A DNA stretch of 64,000 nt from Paludisphaera rhizosphaerae. Its GTDB lineage: Bacteria > Planctomycetota > Planctomycetia > Isosphaerales > Isosphaeraceae. The notes beneath the pieces are model-generated. The model was not told where the DNA came from, ran no database searches, and saw only the letters and a list, made by a program, of their open reading frames with translations. A program made the position numbers and the translations under genes. Positions 4,007 to 41,877 of the stretch are shown here, piece by piece (position 1 is the stretch's first letter; the number at the start of each line of letters is the position of its first letter). The stretch covers positions 62,001-126,000 of the forward strand of contig NZ_JAALCR010000001.1 of the NCBI RefSeq assembly GCF_011065895.1, given 5' to 3'.

Positions 4007-5182
4007 TCAAAGCTCGCGAAGGGCGGAGATGACCTCCAGTTTGACTGCCCGGAGCGCGGGGAGCATGCCGCCGAAGAGGCCCATCACCAGCGTCATGATC
4101 AGGGCGACGGCCATGACCCAGGGGCCGAATCGGAAGTTGATCGTCACCGAGGCGAAGGTGGCGAAGTTCGAGGTCTCGATGGAGATCAGGCTCATCGGGA
4201 TCGTGGCCAGCAGGCCGAGAAGGCCGCCGAGCAGGCTGAGAAGGATCGATTCGCCCAGGAAGGAGAAGAGGACGTCGCCCCGCGAGAAGCCCAGGGCGCG
4301 CATCGTGCCGATCTCTCGGGTCCGCGACTTCACGGCCGAGAACATCGTGTTCGCCGCGGCGAACATCGCGCCGAAGGTCAGCAGCACGGCGATCAACGTG
4401 CCGGCCCCCTTGAGGAACAGACTCGACTCCGACTGCTTGCGGAAGTATTCGGCCTCGGGGATCGCAGCAAGGCGGAACTGGGCGCCCTCGTCGATCTCCT
4501 TCCTCAGTGCGTCGAACTCCGCCGGGCCGGCTGCGCGGATCTGGACGCACGAGACGGACGCCTCGCGGCCGGTGTTGCGCTCCACGTCCTTGAGGTCAGC
4601 CCAGACTTCGCTTTCGGCCGCGCTGCCGCCCGCGGTGAAGACGCCGACGACCCGGTACTTCTCCTTCTCGCCGAAGACGAGCTGTCCGCCGACCTGACCT
4701 CCCTTGTAGAGACGGGCGATCCCCGGACTGACGATGCACTCCCCTTTGCCGGCCTCGATGTCGCGACCGGCGATGATCTTGAAGTTCGGCCGGAGCTTCC
4801 GCGAGGCCGGCTGGACGCCACGGATGATCAGGTTGTTGAAGCTCGGGCGCTGATCGTCGCTCCGATTGCGCTCGGCGATCGCGATGTTGAGCAACTCCTT
4901 GGCGGCGATGGGGCCTTCGGCGTCGTGAAGGATGCCGCCCAGCGTCAGCAGCTCGTCGGCCTTCTTGGACTCAAAGCCCCCCGTCGTTTCGGCCGTCGCC
5001 CCCTTGCGGAGGACGATCAGGTCGAGCGGGTCGCCCGAGATCTTCAGGCTGTGCTCCAGCCCTTCCACCAGGCCGAACAGGATGCAGGACGACGCCACCA
5101 GCAGCGCGGTGCCGAGGACCGTCATCAGGGTCGTCTTCCAGCGGACGCGGAGGTTGCGGACGTTGTACTTGAACGGAATCAT
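4007..5182 (-). CDS. ABC transporter permease, FtsX/MacB type
   Basis: A 391-residue permease with an N-terminal membrane helix (residues about 15-40), a long periplasmic MacB core-like domain, and a C-terminal FtsX domain with three membrane helices (around residues 255-390). This is the topology of type VII (mechanotransmission) ABC systems. It is the last gene of a minus-strand operon of adaptor (8496), ATPase (7107), permease (6386) and this permease, with gaps of only a few bases between the last three. The pair of permeases probably forms a heterodimer driven by the ATPase. Confidence 0.85.
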   Translation of the reverse strand: MIPFKYNVRNLRVRWKTTLMTVLGTALLVASSCILFGLVEGLEHSLKISGDPLDLIVLRKGATAETTGGFESKKADELLTLGGILHDAEGPIAAKELLNIAIAERNRSDDQRPSFNNLIIRGVQPASRKLRPNFKIIAGRDIEAGKGECIVSPGIARLYKGGQVGGQLVFGEKEKYRVVGVFTAGGSAAESEVWADLKDVERNTGREASVSCVQIRAAGPAEFDALRKEIDEGAQFRLAAIPEAEYFRKQSESSLFLKGAGTLIAVLLTFGAMFAAANTMFSAVKSRTREIGTMRALGFSRGDVLFSFLGESILLSLLGGLLGLLATIPMSLISIETSNFATFASVTINFRFGPWVMAVALIMTLVMGLFGGMLPALRAVKLEVISALREL

Positions 5183-31622: not shown

Positions 31623-33275
31623 TCAGTTCGAGGCGGTCGCCGTCGGCTTGGCCGTGTCGATGTGGACGGCTTCGATGTTCGGCGTTTGAGCCTGGCCGCG
31701 AGCATTGCCGCCCACGGCGATGATCGTGTCGTTCAGGCCCGGCAGGAGCCGGTGCGTCAGCCGGGGGAGGCCCCAACCGCCGATGGCTTCCCAGGCGTCG
31801 CCGGCGTCGTTCAGGCGGAAGATCCGGCCCGAAGCGCCGCTGTAGTAGATCCGGCCGGCGACCTCGAAGGCCGAGGTCCCGAAGCCTTCGGTGCGGCCGC
31901 CGCCGCCGAGGGCGGGGCCCTGCGACCAGGCGCCGGTGGCCGGGTCGTAGATGTCGACGTTGCGATCGACGGTCATGCCGCCGCCGACCAGGCCGCCGAG
32001 GACGTAGAGCTTGCCGTTGTGTGAAGCCACTGAAAGCGCCCGGCGCTGGAAGGGCTGGGGGATCGACTTCCAGCCGTCTTCAGGCTTGTCGAGGTTGAAC
32101 GCGAGGGCGTCCTTGAGGAACGTCGACTCCTCATCCCCCCCCTTCATGTGCCAGCCGCCGGCGACGTAGACCGTCCGGCCGATCACGACGGCGTCGTGCG
32201 TCGAACGGGCTTCGGGCATCGGGGTCAGGGCCGTCCAGGTCTTGCTCTCAGGATCGAATCGGGAGAAGTCGGCGACCGAGTGCAGGTCGTGCTCCTCCCC
32301 AGACTTGTTCGAGGCGACCATACCGCCGAGGCGGTAGAGGTACTTGCCGTCGCTGACCAGGCCGAGGCCCTGAAGGTCCTTCTCCATCGGCAGCTCTTCC
32401 CAGGTCTTGCCGTCTTCCAGGTTGAGGCGGCGGAAGTGCTTGGCCGTGGTGTTGACGTCGTACGAGTGGGTCTTGCCGATGTGGCCGCCGTAGATGTACA
32501 GCCACTTGCCCAGCACCGCGCCGCCGAAGCTGTTGACGGCCGGATCGGGGATGTTGGCGACCGTCGTCGCTTCCAGGGCGGTCTTGCCGCCGAGCAGCGT
32601 CGAGGCGGGGGTGAAGTTGAGCGTGGCGTAGTAACGAGTCTCGGCGAAGGGCTTCCCTTCCTTGTCGCCGGCGGTCGCATCGACGTGGTTCGCCCAGACG
32701 GCAGCCTTGCCGTCGGCGAGACCTTCGACGGCCACGCGGCCCTGCTCGTCGGTCGTCACCTCGGTCGACTCGCCCTTGGCCGGATAGACCTTCACGCGGG
32801 CCTTGGCGACGGGCTTGCCGTTGAAGAGGACCTCAAGGACGGGCGCGGTGCTCGTGGTCACGACGCGGACGCGAAGCTTGTCGCCGTTCTCCTTGACGCT
32901 GTCGGCGACGGCATCCGTCTGGGCGCGAGCGGTGTAGAAGAGGCGGTAGGACTTGTCGTTCTTGGTCATGACGCCCAGGTCGCGCTCGGCGTCGACGAAC
33001 GTGGCCGGCTTGCCGACCCAAAGGCCGTTGCGCGAGTCCGCGGCCACTTCCGACGGGATGGTTTGGCCGTCGGCCGTGATCCGCAGATCCTTGACGTATT
33101 TCAGGAACGACGAGTCGGGCTCGGGGTCCTCATTGAAGAACGCGCGGAAGACCGTTTCGCCGGGCTTGGCGCCGGCCTCGGCCTTGAGCCAGATGAAGTG
33201 GGCCCAGGCCGTTTGCGGCAGCAGGGCCGCGACGATCGCCAGGGCCAGGAGCTTGCTGGAACGGAAGAGTTTCAT
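31623..33275 (-). CDS. Exported DUF4198-kelch fusion protein
   Basis: A 550-residue secreted protein. The signal peptide ends at WA-HF (residue 25). Residues about 26-205 match DUF4198, starting with the typical AHFIWLKAEAG; this family includes periplasmic components tied to Co/Ni uptake. Residues about 240-540 are kelch repeats forming a beta-propeller (FGGAVLGKWLYIYGGH, AVVIGRTVYVAGGWH, GKLYVLGGLVGGG). The fusion is unusual. It is the third gene of a minus-strand operon after DUF1559 and a lipoprotein. A surface metal- or glycan-binding role is possible; no catalysis is evident. Confidence 0.82.
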   Translation of the reverse strand: MKLFRSSKLLALAIVAALLPQTAWAHFIWLKAEAGAKPGETVFRAFFNEDPEPDSSFLKYVKDLRITADGQTIPSEVAADSRNGLWVGKPATFVDAERDLGVMTKNDKSYRLFYTARAQTDAVADSVKENGDKLRVRVVTTSTAPVLEVLFNGKPVAKARVKVYPAKGESTEVTTDEQGRVAVEGLADGKAAVWANHVDATAGDKEGKPFAETRYYATLNFTPASTLLGGKTALEATTVANIPDPAVNSFGGAVLGKWLYIYGGHIGKTHSYDVNTTAKHFRRLNLEDGKTWEELPMEKDLQGLGLVSDGKYLYRLGGMVASNKSGEEHDLHSVADFSRFDPESKTWTALTPMPEARSTHDAVVIGRTVYVAGGWHMKGGDEESTFLKDALAFNLDKPEDGWKSIPQPFQRRALSVASHNGKLYVLGGLVGGGMTVDRNVDIYDPATGAWSQGPALGGGGRTEGFGTSAFEVAGRIYYSGASGRIFRLNDAGDAWEAIGGWGLPRLTHRLLPGLNDTIIAVGGNARGQAQTPNIEAVHIDTAKPTATASN

Positions 33276-33332: not shown

Positions 33333-33572
33333 TCACCCCTCGTCGGGGAGCTGAATCTTCTTGTGACGAGAAGAAGCCTTCGCTTCCTTCTGCTTGCGGA
33401 GCTGCCGCTCCGCCTCGTCCTGAGCCAGGGCTTTCTTGCCCTCTTCCGAGTCGGCCGAGACGATTGGGCTGGTCGTCTCGGGGGTGCCCTCGCCGCAGCC
33501 GGTGACGCTCGCCGCCGAACCCAGGATAAGAAGGCAGAGGGCCGTCGGGGTCATCATTTTGATGGACTTCAA
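33333..33572 (-). CDS. Small hypothetical lipoprotein
   Basis: A 79-residue predicted lipoprotein: a short basic start (MKSIKMM), a hydrophobic segment and the lipobox-like SVTGC, then a charged, likely disordered, Lys/Glu-rich tail. I start at TTG 33572 because GGAG lies seven bases upstream; ATG 33557 would also leave the lipobox, and a GTG at 33611 would overlap the preceding gene. It sits between DUF1559 and DUF4198-kelch in one operon. Such small lipoproteins often follow DUF1559 genes in planctomycetes; their function is unknown. Confidence 0.65.
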   Translation of the reverse strand: MKSIKMMTPTALCLLILGSAASVTGCGEGTPETTSPIVSADSEEGKKALAQDEAERQLRKQKEAKASSRHKKIQLPDEG

Positions 33573-33607
33573 CGTCCGGCTCCTGGTCTCTCGTGGGAGG
33601 TCGTCGA

Positions 33608-34693
33608 TCACATCGCGTCGGACGAGACGATCTCGCCGCCTCCGATGGTCGAGAGCGCCTGGTAGGTCGGGAACGAGATCGAGTCCTTGACGGTCCGCAC
33701 GGTGCCGTCGCCGAAGAGGAAATTCGTCGTGCCGGGGTGGGCCGACCGGAAGTTGGGGAGCACCTGGGCGGAAGCCGGAGCCGCCAGGCCGGGCGCCGCG
33801 TCGAAGACGTCGGTTGCCGATTCAGCGCCGCAGTCGTTGACGCGATAGGCGTTGCCGACCGAATCGACCGTCCTGGCCGCCAGGCCGCCGATGATCCGGG
33901 CCGTCGAGGTTCCCGTGGTCCAGGTTCGCGACCGGCCGTAGGCCATGAACATCAGATTGTCGTAGTAGACCGGCCCAGCCGTGTTGTAGCTTGCGAGCGG
34001 GAGGCAGACGCGAGTCGTGGTGCCGGCGGCGTAGAGCTTGTTCCGCTGGTTGCCGCCGGCGGCTTCCCCCATCAGGAACGTGTTGCTGGTGCCGTCGGTC
34101 ACCTCGGCCAGCCGCGTCGCGGTGTCGAAGCCGAAGGGGCCCATCCGGCCCGTCTCGCCGAAGCCCTTGATCGCGTAGCGGCCAGCCCCGGCGTTGAAGA
34201 GATAGTCGGTCACGGCCGCCTTGGACACCGTCCATCCGCTGCTCGACGTCGATCCCACCTCGCCCGTGGCCCGGTTCGAGGGGCAGAGAAAGGTCGAGAA
34301 CTGCATCGAGAACGCAGTGCTGTTGGACCACTGCGACCAGCCGAAGTACGCCAGCGACCCCGAATACGACGCCGTGCCGAAGTTGAACGCGTTGAAGGCG
34401 TTGGTCTGCTCGACATAGGGGAGCAGGAAGCTGTAGCCGGTGAAATTCAGGTAGGTGTAGTACATCCCTCCCTGAGCGGCCGGCGGCATCGCGTTGTTCG
34501 AGTCCAGGTAGTTGTGGATCGCCAGCCCGAGCTGCTTCATGTTGTTCGTGCACTGGATGCGCCGTGCCGCCTCGCGCGCCGCCTGCACCGCAGGCAGGAG
34601 CAACGCGATCAATACGGCGATGATCGCGATGACCACCAGGAGTTCAATCAGCGTGAAACCCCGACGTCGTCCGACCCGGGTACCCTGCGACAT
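33608..34693 (-). CDS. DUF1559 pilin-like protein
   Basis: A 361-residue protein of the planctomycete-specific DUF1559 family. A type IV pilin leader ([20 protein letters not shown]) gives an N-methylated helix (residues 12-34), then the conserved [14 protein letters not shown] and NNMKQLGLA, and at the C-terminus the family's H...DG motif ([16 protein letters not shown]). It is probably processed by prepilin peptidase and displayed in the envelope as a pseudopilin. It is first in an operon with the lipoprotein and DUF4198-kelch genes. Confidence 0.95.
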
Positions 34694-34905
34694 GTGAGAA
34701 AGCTCCGATGCCTTGCGTTTCGATGTTTCAGGGAATGAGAAAGCCGCTTCGCTTCCATGTCGGTGAGGCGACTCGTCCTAGCGGTGGCGCGTTCCCTGGG
34801 CTCTCCAGAGAACGCCCTCGCAGACCGCTCGCCCAACGATGAGAGCGTGCCATCGCTCCCAGTTCAGCTATCGCATGTCAGCCGCTGAACGGCCTATTGT
34901 GCGAT

Positions 34906-34920
34906 TGAGATTCAATCTCA
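34906..34920. promoter_or_regulatory. 7-1-7 palindromic operator, Fur-family-like
   Basis: TGAGATT-C-AATCTCA is a perfect 15-base palindrome with a one-base centre. It lies seven bases downstream of the -10 element of the DUF1559 operon promoter, across the expected transcription start, a position where a bound repressor would block initiation. The 7-1-7 shape and TGAGA/TCTCA ends resemble Fur-family boxes. Identity of the regulator is inference. Confidence 0.55.
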
Positions 34921-34927
34921 GCGCCAA

Positions 34928-34956
34928 ACTCTAGCGTGGACCGTGTAGGTTGTCAA
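34928..34956 (-). promoter_or_regulatory. Near-consensus promoter of the DUF1559 operon
   Basis: On the minus strand a perfect TTGACA (34956-34951) and TAGAGT (34933-34928) are spaced by exactly 17 bases. Transcription would start near 34921, leaving a leader of about 228 bases before the ATG at 34693. The palindrome at 34906-34920 overlaps the start region. Confidence 0.65.
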
Positions 34957-35070: not shown

Positions 35071-35976
35071 TTAGGCCAGAACGCGTTTCGGCGGTATGGA
35101 GCGGAGGTGTTCGGCGAGAGTCGCCAATGAGGGCCAGCGGTCGCGACGGTCCACGGCGACGAGTTTGAGGAGCGTGTCCCTGAGTTCGTCGGACAGTTTC
35201 GGCTGCACGACCTGGGGATCGGACGGCGGGGTCCGGAAACGCTGGAGGAGAGCGTTGGGGGAAGCGGGGGCGTCGTAGGGGAGCTTGCCGGTCAGGAACT
35301 GGAAGGCGACGACGCCGAAGCTAAAGACGTCGATCTGCTCGTCGATCGATTCCCGACGGATCAACTCGGGGGCCATGTACTGAAGGCAGCCGGTGCGGTT
35401 TCCTGGCTTTCGAAACGCGGGCGTATTGGGGACGGTCAGTCCGAAGTCGATGACTCGCGCCCGATGGTCGTGCGAGCGATCGACGAGGAAGTTTCGAGGA
35501 TTGACGTCGTGATGAATGAACCCGGCCTGGTGGACGGCGGCGAGCCCCTCCGCCGCTTGAGCCAGCCATTCGAGCCGATGCGCCGTGCGGCCGAGCCGGT
35601 CTTCCTGCATTTTCTCGAAGGAGATCCCGTTGATGTATTCCATCACCAGGAATTCTTCACCCTTCGAGGTGATCCCGCTTTCCAGAGTCCGGACGACGTT
35701 CGGGTGGCGGATCTGGATCGCGATCGCCCCTTCGGCGGGGCGCTCCTCATGACGAGACGCACGCGCCTGGGCCGCTTCATTCCGCTCGCGATCCTGGACC
35801 TTGAGGCACACGAGCTTGCCAGACTGGGTGTCGAGCGCCTTATAGACCTTCGACATGCTCCCCTGGGAGGAGACGTCGGATTCGATCAGGAACCGTTTCT
35901 GAATATCGACGACAGGGCGACGGCCGCCGCTTTCCGGCGGTGCTGCGACGAATATCCCTTTGAGTTTGCCGATCAT
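35071..35976 (-). CDS. Soluble Ser/Thr protein kinase
   Basis: A 301-residue Hanks-type kinase without a membrane anchor. Residues about 28-290 form the kinase domain: catalytic Lys in VCLKVQ, catalytic loop HHDVNPRN (His replaces Arg of HRD), DFG in VIDFGL, and MAPEL. The glycine-rich loop is degenerate (SSQGSMSKVY). It should be active but, as a non-RD kinase, may not need activation-loop phosphorylation. The domain fills the protein, with no sensor region. It is monocistronic, so its targets are unknown. Confidence 0.9.
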   Translation of the reverse strand: MIGKLKGIFVAAPPESGGRRPVVDIQKRFLIESDVSSQGSMSKVYKALDTQSGKLVCLKVQDRERNEAAQARASRHEERPAEGAIAIQIRHPNVVRTLESGITSKGEEFLVMEYINGISFEKMQEDRLGRTAHRLEWLAQAAEGLAAVHQAGFIHHDVNPRNFLVDRSHDHRARVIDFGLTVPNTPAFRKPGNRTGCLQYMAPELIRRESIDEQIDVFSFGVVAFQFLTGKLPYDAPASPNALLQRFRTPPSDPQVVQPKLSDELRDTLLKLVAVDRRDRWPSLATLAEHLRSIPPKRVLA

Positions 35977-38722: not shown

Positions 38723-39027
38723 TCGGCCCCGTCCTGTCCTGAGGAATCCGAACCGTTCCTGGTTCCGGCCGCTCGGAGCCGCAATAGGGGCGTGTGGTTG
38801 CTGCGCAGGGTGCAAGCCGGTCCGAGGCGGTCGGGCATGTTAGGCCAGTCTGTCGGATCGGTCAATGCGAACCACCGCCCGGGGCCGGACGCGCTTCTCA
38901 CCGCCTTGCCGCTAAGCCTATCAGAGCTATAGGATGAAGAGGCTCGAAGCCTCTGGAAGCGATCCTCCCACCCCGGCACGGGATGGATGACGTGAAGGTG
39001 CCGTGTACTCCTCCACAGGGTTCCCCG
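38723..39027. other. Divergent spacer between the phosphatase and dsbD genes
   Basis: No gene seen. A plus-strand TTGCCG (38906-38911) and TATAGG (38928-38933), 16 bases apart, are a moderate promoter candidate for the DsbD gene. Confidence 0.35.
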
Positions 39028-41877
39028 ATGATGCAACCTCACCTCGCCGGTCGCGCCGTTTCGGCGTTCGCCGTGGCGTTCGTCATGATGGCCGTCCCGG
39101 CCTTCGGCGACGGGCTCCAGCCCGCTCAGAAGGACAGCAATCCCCGGGGAAAGCCCAAGGATGCGGAGCTGACCGCGACCATCGAACCGGCCGAGGCCAA
39201 ACCGGGAGACGTCGTTCAGCTCACCGTGCATGCCAAGCTCAAGCGGGGCTGGCACATCTACACCTTCGCTGAAAAGCAGCGCGACGACGGCCCGCGCCAC
39301 ACCCTGTTTGACACGTTCGACCTGGCGGGGTTGGAGGCGGACGGCGCCTGGACGGCCTCGAAGCCGGCCGAGTCCAAGGCCGAGCCCGCCTTCGAGAACA
39401 AGGTCTTCGAGTTCTTCGAGGACGAGGTCTCCTGGAGCCTCCCCCTCAAGGTTCCGGCCGACGCCACGTCGGGCAAGAAGACAATCCGCGTTCAGGCGAG
39501 CTACCAGATCTGCAACGCCTCCAGTTGCAGCTTCCCGGGTCGATGGACGCTCCCCGATGCGGTCCTGACGGTCGTCGGCGGCAAGGCCGCCGCGCCGGAG
39601 GCCTCGCCCAAGGCTGCCCCGAAGAAGAAGGACACGCCCGAGAAGCTCCGGCCTCGGGGCGTGTCGCTGGCTCCTTCGATCTCGCCGGCCGAGGCGAAGC
39701 CGGGTGACACGGTGACCTACAAGGTGGCCGTCAAGCTGGAGCCGGGTCTTCATATTTACGACCTCGAGAAGCCCGGAGCGAATGGGAACGGCCCGGTGCC
39801 GACCGCGTTCGACCTTTTCGACACCGGCGGACTTCAAGCGTCCGGAGCCTGGAAGCCCTCGCACGAACCGACGGTCAAACCTGAGCCTGCCTTTGGCGAC
39901 AATGTGCTCGTCGAGTTCTTCGAGGACGAGGTCGCCTGGTCCACAGAGCTGAAGATTCCCGCCGGCGCCGCGCCCGGCGAGCATACGATCCAGAGCCAGA
40001 TCAACTACCAGATCTGCAATGAGAACTCCTGCTTCCCGCCGACCTATCAGTCGCTCCCCGAGGTCGTCGTGAAGGTGGTCGATGGGAACTCCACGGTCAC
40101 CCCGGCATCGGCCGCCGTGGCCGCGACGCCGGCCCCGCCCGCCGAGATTCCCGCTGCCGCCGCCGTGGCTGCGACGCCGGCCTCGCCCACTGAGACTCCT
40201 GCCGTGGCCGCCGTGGCTGCGACGCCGGCCCTACCTGCCGAGGCTCCGACCGCGTCCGTTGCGGCCTCCCCCGCTCCGGCCGCTGCGGCCGTCCCCGCGA
40301 AGCCGAGCGAAGAGCCGAAGCCCGCCTCCGCCGCTGCGACGGTTATCGGCAAGGCGCCGGCCGAGGAGGCTCCGGTCAGCGAGATCGCCCGGACGGCCCA
40401 GCAAGGTTTGATCCCCTTCCTGATCGCCTCCGCGCTGGGAGGGCTGTTTGCGCTGGTGATGCCCTGCGTTTGGCCGATGATCCCGATCACGGTCAACTTC
40501 TTCGTCAAGCAGGGGGCTCAGAAGGGCAAGGGCGGGACGACGGGCCTGGCCGTGGTTTACTGCCTGGCGATCATCGGGATTTTCACGATGGTCGGCGTGG
40601 TCTTCTCGTTCCTGTTCTCTCCGTCCTTCCTCCAGAACCTGGCCAACAACCCCTGGCTCAACCTGGTGGTCGCCGGCCTGTTCCTGGCCTTCGGTCTGAG
40701 CCTGCTGGGGATGTTCGAGATCAGCCTGCCGAGCTTCCTGCTGAACGCCTCGTCCCGCGGCGAAAGCCGAGGCGGGCTGGTGGGCATCATCTTCATGGCG
40801 CTCACGCTGACGATCACCTCGTTCACCTGCACGTTCCCCGTCGTCGGCGGCCTGCTCGTCATGGCCTCCCAGGGGAACTTCCTCTACCCGATCATCGGCC
40901 TCGCCACCTTTGCATCGGTCCTGGCGTTCCCGTTCTTCGTGCTGGCCCTCGCCCCCGGCCTGATCTCGAAGATGCCCCGCAGCGGCGACTGGATGAACTC
41001 GGTCAAGGTCGTCGGCGGCCTGGTGGAAATCGGTGCGGCGCTCAAGTTCCTGAACACCGCCGAACTCGGCTGGGTCACTCCTGAGAACGCCTGGTTCGAC
41101 GCCCAGGTCGTGCTGACGGCCTGGATCGTGCTCTCCGCGGTTTGCGGCGTCTATCTGCTGGGCCTCTTCCGTACGGACCACGACTACGACGAGGTGAAGG
41201 TCGGCTCCGGCCGGATCCTTTTCGGCTGCATGTTCCTGGGCCTGGCCCTCTACATGGCCCCCGCTCTCTTCGGCCGACCGCCGCAGAGCCTCGTCTGGGA
41301 CCGGATGATCGTGGGGATCCTGCCCCCCGACTCCAACGAACTCGTGGCCGAGACGCGGATCGCCAGCGCGACGGGTGCCGGCGAATCCGGCGAGGTCAAA
41401 GCGACCTCCACCGACCCGGCCCAGGCCGAACGCGAGCAGAAGAGCCTGCACGGCGTTCTCTGGGGGATGAGCCTAGACCAGGCCAAGGAGGAGGCCGCAG
41501 CCCAGAACCGGCCGATCCTCATCGACTTCACCGGCGTCAACTGCGCCAACTGCCGCCTGATGGAGCGGAACGTCCTGCCGAGGCCGGACGTGGTGAAGCT
41601 GCTCAAGGAGTTCGTGACGATCCAGCTCTACACCGACCGGGTCCCGATCGGCTCGCTCACGGCCGACCAGCGCGAGGAACTGGCCCAGGCCAACCAACTT
41701 CGCCAACTCGACCTGGCCGCCGAGCAAACCAACCCGTTCTACGTGATCCTTACGCCCGAGGGGAAAGTCGTCTCCTCGATGGGCGGCTACAACGAACCGC
41801 CCGTTTTCCAGGACTTCCTGACCAAGGCCCTCGATAAGGCCCGCGGCGCTTCCCGGGTCGCCCGGGCGGGCTTCTGA
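39028..41877 (+). CDS. DsbD-like thiol:disulfide interchange protein with duplicated sensor domain
   Basis: A 949-residue envelope reductase. After a signal peptide (to about residue 28) come two tandem DsbD-alpha-like domains, each with a cysteine pair (QICNASSC; QICNENSC), a Pro/Ala-rich linker of three 16-residue repeats, an eight-helix DsbD core with a membrane cysteine in VMPCVWP and another in TSFTCTFP, and a C-terminal thioredoxin domain with Cys839/Cys842 (NCANC). It moves electrons from cytoplasmic thioredoxin to periplasmic partners. The doubled N-terminal domain is unlike the single one of E. coli DsbD. ATG 39031 is an alternative start. Confidence 0.88.
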   Translation: MMQPHLAGRAVSAFAVAFVMMAVPAFGDGLQPAQKDSNPRGKPKDAELTATIEPAEAKPGDVVQLTVHAKLKRGWHIYTFAEKQRDDGPRHTLFDTFDLAGLEADGAWTASKPAESKAEPAFENKVFEFFEDEVSWSLPLKVPADATSGKKTIRVQASYQICNASSCSFPGRWTLPDAVLTVVGGKAAAPEASPKAAPKKKDTPEKLRPRGVSLAPSISPAEAKPGDTVTYKVAVKLEPGLHIYDLEKPGANGNGPVPTAFDLFDTGGLQASGAWKPSHEPTVKPEPAFGDNVLVEFFEDEVAWSTELKIPAGAAPGEHTIQSQINYQICNENSCFPPTYQSLPEVVVKVVDGNSTVTPASAAVAATPAPPAEIPAAAAVAATPASPTETPAVAAVAATPALPAEAPTASVAASPAPAAAAVPAKPSEEPKPASAAATVIGKAPAEEAPVSEIARTAQQGLIPFLIASALGGLFALVMPCVWPMIPITVNFFVKQGAQKGKGGTTGLAVVYCLAIIGIFTMVGVVFSFLFSPSFLQNLANNPWLNLVVAGLFLAFGLSLLGMFEISLPSFLLNASSRGESRGGLVGIIFMALTLTITSFTCTFPVVGGLLVMASQGNFLYPIIGLATFASVLAFPFFVLALAPGLISKMPRSGDWMNSVKVVGGLVEIGAALKFLNTAELGWVTPENAWFDAQVVLTAWIVLSAVCGVYLLGLFRTDHDYDEVKVGSGRILFGCMFLGLALYMAPALFGRPPQSLVWDRMIVGILPPDSNELVAETRIASATGAGESGEVKATSTDPAQAEREQKSLHGVLWGMSLDQAKEEAAAQNRPILIDFTGVNCANCRLMERNVLPRPDVVKLLKEFVTIQLYTDRVPIGSLTADQREELAQANQLRQLDLAAEQTNPFYVILTPEGKVVSSMGGYNEPPVFQDFLTKALDKARGASRVARAGF
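40111..40254 (+). repeat. Three 48-base tandem repeats in the DsbD linker
   Basis: The string GCCGCCGTGGC recurs at 40111, 40159 and 40207, exactly 48 bases apart. Each unit encodes 16 residues of the form AVAATPAxPxExPAxA. A degenerate partial fourth unit follows. The in-frame length suggests a minisatellite that varies linker length without breaking the gene. Confidence 0.75.

Follow-up and report, generated by a model that had tools for sequence, protein, structure and literature searches.

The window analyzed here, a 64,000-nucleotide stretch of the Paludisphaera rhizosphaerae genome (8.05 Mb, Isosphaeraceae), carries on its minus strand a promoter followed by a 7-1-7 palindrome, ahead of an operon for a DUF1559 protein, a small lipoprotein-like protein and a secreted DUF4198/kelch protein. 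The locus raises the question of whether the palindrome is the operator of a metal-responsive repressor and, if so, which repressor and which metal are involved.

Promoter, palindrome and operon

The features of the locus are as follows.

34951..34956, minus strand: -35 hexamer TTGACA; TTGAC invariant in 8 orthologous promoters
34928..34933, minus strand: -10 hexamer TAGAGT after a 17-nt spacer; TA.A.T pattern invariant in 8 orthologous promoters
34906..34920, minus strand: predicted Fur-type 7-1-7 operator TGAGATT-G-AATCTCA, 7 nt past the -10, ~+2 to +16
34694..34921, minus strand: predicted 5' untranslated leader, ~228 nt, from the predicted start to the open reading frame
33608..34693, minus strand: DUF1559 (PF07596) protein with N-terminal methylation motif, operon gene 1 (Pfam; box-linked DUF1559 clade)
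33333..33611, minus strand: small lipoprotein-like protein, kept in several orthologous operons
31623..33275, minus strand: secreted protein with a DUF4198-like N-terminal part and a kelch propeller (Pfam)

Direct reading of the window letters gives TTGACA-17-TAGAGT-7-TGAGATTGAATCTCA on the minus strand from 34956 to 34906, so the arrangement described by the sequence-only reading (TTGACA, 17 bases, TAGAGT, seven bases and a 7-1-7 palindrome) is borne out. Two of its details need correction: the central C is the plus-strand base, the minus strand having G, and the palindrome is not centered on the start, since counting from the -10 places the expected start at ~34921 and the box at about +2 to +16. 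This promoter is the single case in the window in which a TTGACA is followed at 16-18 nt by a good -10. The palindrome alone is unremarkable, because the window contains 17 perfect 7-1-7 palindromes; the decisive evidence for the box is its recurrence.

The DUF4198 match of the secreted protein (E 1.1e-5) falls below the Pfam cut-off, yet a homologue at locus L273 passes it. No Pfam family was matched by the small lipoprotein-like protein. An RNA element in the leader was considered and rejected: the Rfam search of 34694..34921 returned nothing above threshold and one meaningless weak match, and the length and sequence of the leader vary among orthologues. The plasmid search for the window region gave no match. 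Upstream of the operon lies a short Ser/Thr kinase gene (window 35071-35976), found in the same place at L110, L112 and L118. Also nearby, at 38983-41877, is a DsbD-type protein that carries a pair of DsbD_N domains and, at its C terminus, a thioredoxin; DsbD systems also serve extracytosolic redox.

Copies of the box in the host genome

The box, searched as TGAGAYYNRRTCTCA, has seven copies in the host genome and none in the reversed control. With the pattern TGAGAWTNAWTCTCA and at most one mismatch, six places were found (reversed control, 0), and the seventh was added by a longer pattern with more mismatches. The sites and the genes that they accompany are listed below.

Window: DUF1559-lipoprotein-DUF4198/kelch operon
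C3, L008: feoA-feoB
C5, L009: TPR gene adjoining globin and quinol-type nitric oxide reductase
C17, L007: DUF1559 gene or Peripla_BP_4 protein
C18, L010: protein with DUF7133, HEAT and cytochrome c domains
C24, L011: MauG-like di-haem peroxidase with DUF1559
C19, L029: PepSY_TM protein

The genome-wide search for the 15-mer, which the sequence-only reading had called for, thus leads to feoAB, PepSY_TM and MauG/DUF1559 operons; feoAB is the textbook ferrous iron importer. The fur gene itself showed no copy. The copy at the TPR gene (G000:C5:103754; L009 7236-8015) is a 29-bp near-perfect palindrome, TTGCAATTGAGATTCAGTCTCAATTGCAA. A TPR protein gene is box-led in at least seven genomes (relatives at L069, L104, L111, L114, L122 and L125), several of which also have a globin and a quinol-type nitric oxide reductase close by.

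Position relative to promoters and conservation

Among 108 non-redundant sites, 87 of 216 box arms hold a sigma-70-like promoter, scored as a TTGAC-type -35 separated by 16-18 nt from a -10; in control arms from the neighborhood the figure is 15 of 1702. Most promoter-bearing arms have 4-14 nt between the end of the -10 and the box, and the box therefore normally covers the start, which is a place for a repressor. The orthologous operons compared came from the same genus, Singulisphaera acidiphila DSM 18658, Singulisphaera sp. GP187 and a Planctomycetales MAG. In these the -35 (TTGAC) and the -10 (TA.A.T) do not vary, nor does most of the box, and the remaining leader sequence is not conserved. 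As judged from the aligned sequences, the window promoter and box form a phylogenetic footprint, and by that conservation the site qualifies as functional.

Distribution in the family and the class

Of the 45 family genomes, 43 carry the 16-mer TTGAGAYYNRRTCTCA; the control had one match in total. We inspected 86 family loci, namely 80 fetched places and six other loci of the host genome. The first gene past the promoter-box pairs was DUF1559 in 32 cases, FTR1 in 16, TPR in 7, feoAB in 6, PepSY_TM in 4 and MauG in 1, with ~8 others or none. Box-led FTR1 is nearly always followed by P19, and the FTR1, P19 and PepSY_TM assignments were confirmed in Pfam. FTR1-P19 is a second iron importer, unrelated to FeoAB, and two independent iron-uptake systems therefore share the box. 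The box stands at FTR1 permease operons at L077, L080, L082, L087, L092, L094, L132, L138, L139 and other loci. These permeases have a long cupredoxin-like N-terminal part and are followed by the P19 Fe2+ transport protein, and the operons are often divergent from a methyltransferase gene. At no site examined in the window's own genus was an FTR1-P19 operon box-led.

The same box leads feoAB in two further families of the class. In one (f3), feoA/feoB lie behind 7 of 14 box loci, and DUF1559 and PepSY_TM lie behind one. In the other (f5), the genes led by the box include feoAB, DUF1559 and a DUF4198-kelch gene whose match lies above the Pfam cut-off. The idea that f5 is devoid of the box was discarded: when position -2 was left open to any base, the box appeared in 13 of 17 genomes tested, many of the copies being at feoAB, DUF1559 or DUF4198-kelch genes. 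One genome, G022, has Fur, and no box was found in it under the patterns used. Taken across the class, the comparison makes the box a probable conserved iron-control site over the starts of iron-uptake genes.

Some individual loci show further arrangements. At L081 (4996-5016), the kelch operon promoter has two overlapping 7-1-7 repeats, and L089 has two separate boxes, at 5002 and 6785, before the feo region. In another family, at L194 (737-1515), ~280 bp separate the end of a ferritin-like gene from a following box, which possibly serves the next gene.

Comparison with known Fur boxes

The Bacillus subtilis Fur box, TGATAATNATTATCA (also TGAGAATNATTCTCA), is like the window site a 15-bp inverted repeat with an odd center, and the two share T-7 G-6 A-5. 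A-3. T-1. The half-site TGAGATT agrees with TGATAAT at five of seven positions and with TGAGAAT at six of seven. Also shared with the 7-1-7 form of the Fur box are the overlap with the promoter and the placement at feoAB and other iron genes. What differs is the base choice of the planctomycete form, (A)TTGAGA(C/T)TNA(A/G)TCTCAA(T), with G at -4 and, in Isosphaeraceae, C or T at -2. At main-pattern sites -2 is never A, in contrast to the standard TGATAAT or TGAGAAT; the main pattern itself required C or T there, and a search of the host genome that allowed A found no site with A. In another family of the class A also occurs at -2.

A single 7-1-7 site at feoAB is likewise found in Magnetospirillum gryphiswaldense, where the feoAB1 operator binds one Fur dimer, as seen in a crystal structure (PMC11353095). 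The planctomycete case differs in phylum and in base choice. In the literature searched we found no published planctomycete Fur box, nor any planctomycete report of Fe-Fur binding in vitro or of an iron response of such genes. The best explanation of these likenesses appears to be a box of the Fur type with a planctomycete-specific base choice.

Identity of the regulator

The host genome encodes two Fur-family proteins and one DtxR-family protein. The first Fur (G000:C7, ~108 kb) has two CxxC pairs, an HDH motif and a TVYRTL recognition helix, and its closest relative among solved structures is Campylobacter Fur (4ets). We consider it very likely, from the comparative genomics, that the window site is an operator of this iron-sensing repressor; the binder (Fur), the repressive effect and the signal (iron) are all inferred. 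The proposal of the sequence-only reading that a Fur-type box over the start marks a metal-regulated operator gains support from the feoAB, PepSY_TM and MauG/DUF1559 copies. Its hint at cobalt and nickel is a different matter: the metal is more probably iron, DUF4198 genes being proven Fur or iron targets elsewhere (PMC3751524, PMC12004947, PMC7190382). Among the box-led genes examined, none for zinc, cobalt or nickel uptake was seen.

The main competitor is the DtxR-family protein (G000:C5, ~114 kb), for which the box would be an iron/manganese operator with the same regulon and logic. Of 158 genomes of the class, 157 encode a DtxR-family protein, and regulators of this type are generally known to control feo and manganese genes in other phyla. 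Presence and absence across the class proved uninformative here: Fur and DtxR proteins each occur in nearly every genome, and co-occurrence separates neither because both are nearly universal. Two box-bearing genomes, G119 and G134, show no Fur in assemblies that are fragmented and 94% and 92% complete, respectively. The recognition helices are more telling. The DtxR helix reads VSPGTV in the window's family and VKAPSV in f3, where VKAPSVTGMLKRL replaces VSPGTVTGMLKTL, yet the feoAB box is the same, so that the box does not follow the DtxR helix as a DtxR/MntR-type operator should; where the DtxR helix changes, the Fur helix remains VSR(S/A/P)T(V/I)YR. Fur is favored over DtxR because the feoAB box is unchanged in f3 despite the changed DtxR helix. 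Also against DtxR are the Fur 7-1-7 form of the box, the best structural matches of the host DtxR-family protein, which include manganese-type regulators, and the box-free promoter of the host's Nramp-type transporter gene. We regard control by the DtxR-family protein as unlikely. The Nramp promoter (G000:C21:75924; L220 ~1195-1260) has an imperfect repeat of its own, TTGGTTGACCTAAAACCAA, and a perfect palindrome, AAGTGGGCA-A-TGCCCACTT, which are possible sites of the DtxR-family regulator.

Binding by the other Fur-family protein (G000:C9), whose sequence is PerR-like, with a response to peroxide or another metal, is a weaker candidate still. Its closest solved relative is Bacillus PerR, PerR boxes are, as is generally known, also 7-1-7, and some box-led genes encode haem proteins (MauG). 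However, several box-bearing genomes have the first Fur only (e.g. G005, G015, G024 and G034), and the box targets mainly iron uptake; we give this protein very little chance. A functionless chance palindrome beside a promoter might be suspected from the number of perfect 7-1-7 palindromes that the window contains (17), but position speaks against it, and recurrence and conservation rule it out for practical purposes.

If Fur is the regulator, an Fe(II)-Fur dimer would, under iron sufficiency, occupy the single 7-1-7 box past the -10, over the start, and block RNA polymerase. When iron is scarce, Fur would leave and the DUF1559-lipoprotein-DUF4198/kelch operon would be transcribed, along with the box-bearing feoAB, PepSY_TM, MauG-DUF1559 and TPR genes. 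The operon products may then take part in iron acquisition in the periplasm or at the outer surface.

DUF4198, DUF1559 and iron acquisition

In Caulobacter, DUF4198 genes have been proven to be Fur targets and rank with the genes that respond most strongly to iron and Fur (PMC3751524); in Alteromonas they are iron-responsive (PMC7190382). They often stand alongside PepSY proteins proposed to reduce periplasmic iron (PMC8238504, PMC12004947), and PepSY_TM genes are repeatedly Fur-repressed (PMC8238504). The window operon resembles the Fur-repressed DUF4198/PepSY/DUF2271/ApbE operons of Caulobacter and Alteromonas (PMC3751524, PMC12004947, PMC7190382, PMC8238504) in its secreted DUF4198 protein, its probable iron control and the PepSY member of its regulon. 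It differs from them in that DUF4198 is fused to a kelch propeller and a DUF1559 pilin-like gene leads the operon; neither ApbE nor DUF2271 was seen in it. Because DUF4198 genes elsewhere are iron- or Fur-regulated and often accompanied by PepSY, iron acquisition seems a better reading of the operon's role than cobalt or nickel uptake. DUF1559 is new in the company of DUF4198/PepSY iron genes.

DUF1559 is a very large pilin-like planctomycete family with about 152 matches in the host genome, or an estimated ~2-3% of genes (152 matches in 8 Mb). DUF1559 genes nevertheless lead 32 of the ~74 promoter-box pairs (~43%). On a tree of 112 DUF1559 proteins, the box label changes 16 times, compared with a shuffled mean of 36 (minimum 30); the sample is biased to box-linked clades, since its box loci were selected by the presence of a box. 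The window protein falls in a fully supported clade of 12, ten of which have a perfect box nearby; the remaining two have a one-mismatch box, upstream at L177 and ~400 bp upstream at L179. Its box places the window member under probable iron control. More tentatively, specific DUF1559 clades might be dedicated iron-starvation proteins that build, jointly with DUF4198/kelch and PepSY_TM proteins, an apparatus for iron capture at the surface or in the periplasm, an idea that we hold to be somewhat less likely than not.

The comparison yields a testable planctomycete consensus, (A)TTGAGAYTNARTCTCAA(T), and predicts an iron regulon across the class. Its main value lies in linking DUF1559 subclades to iron, which is, to our knowledge, the first handle on when particular members of this family are made.
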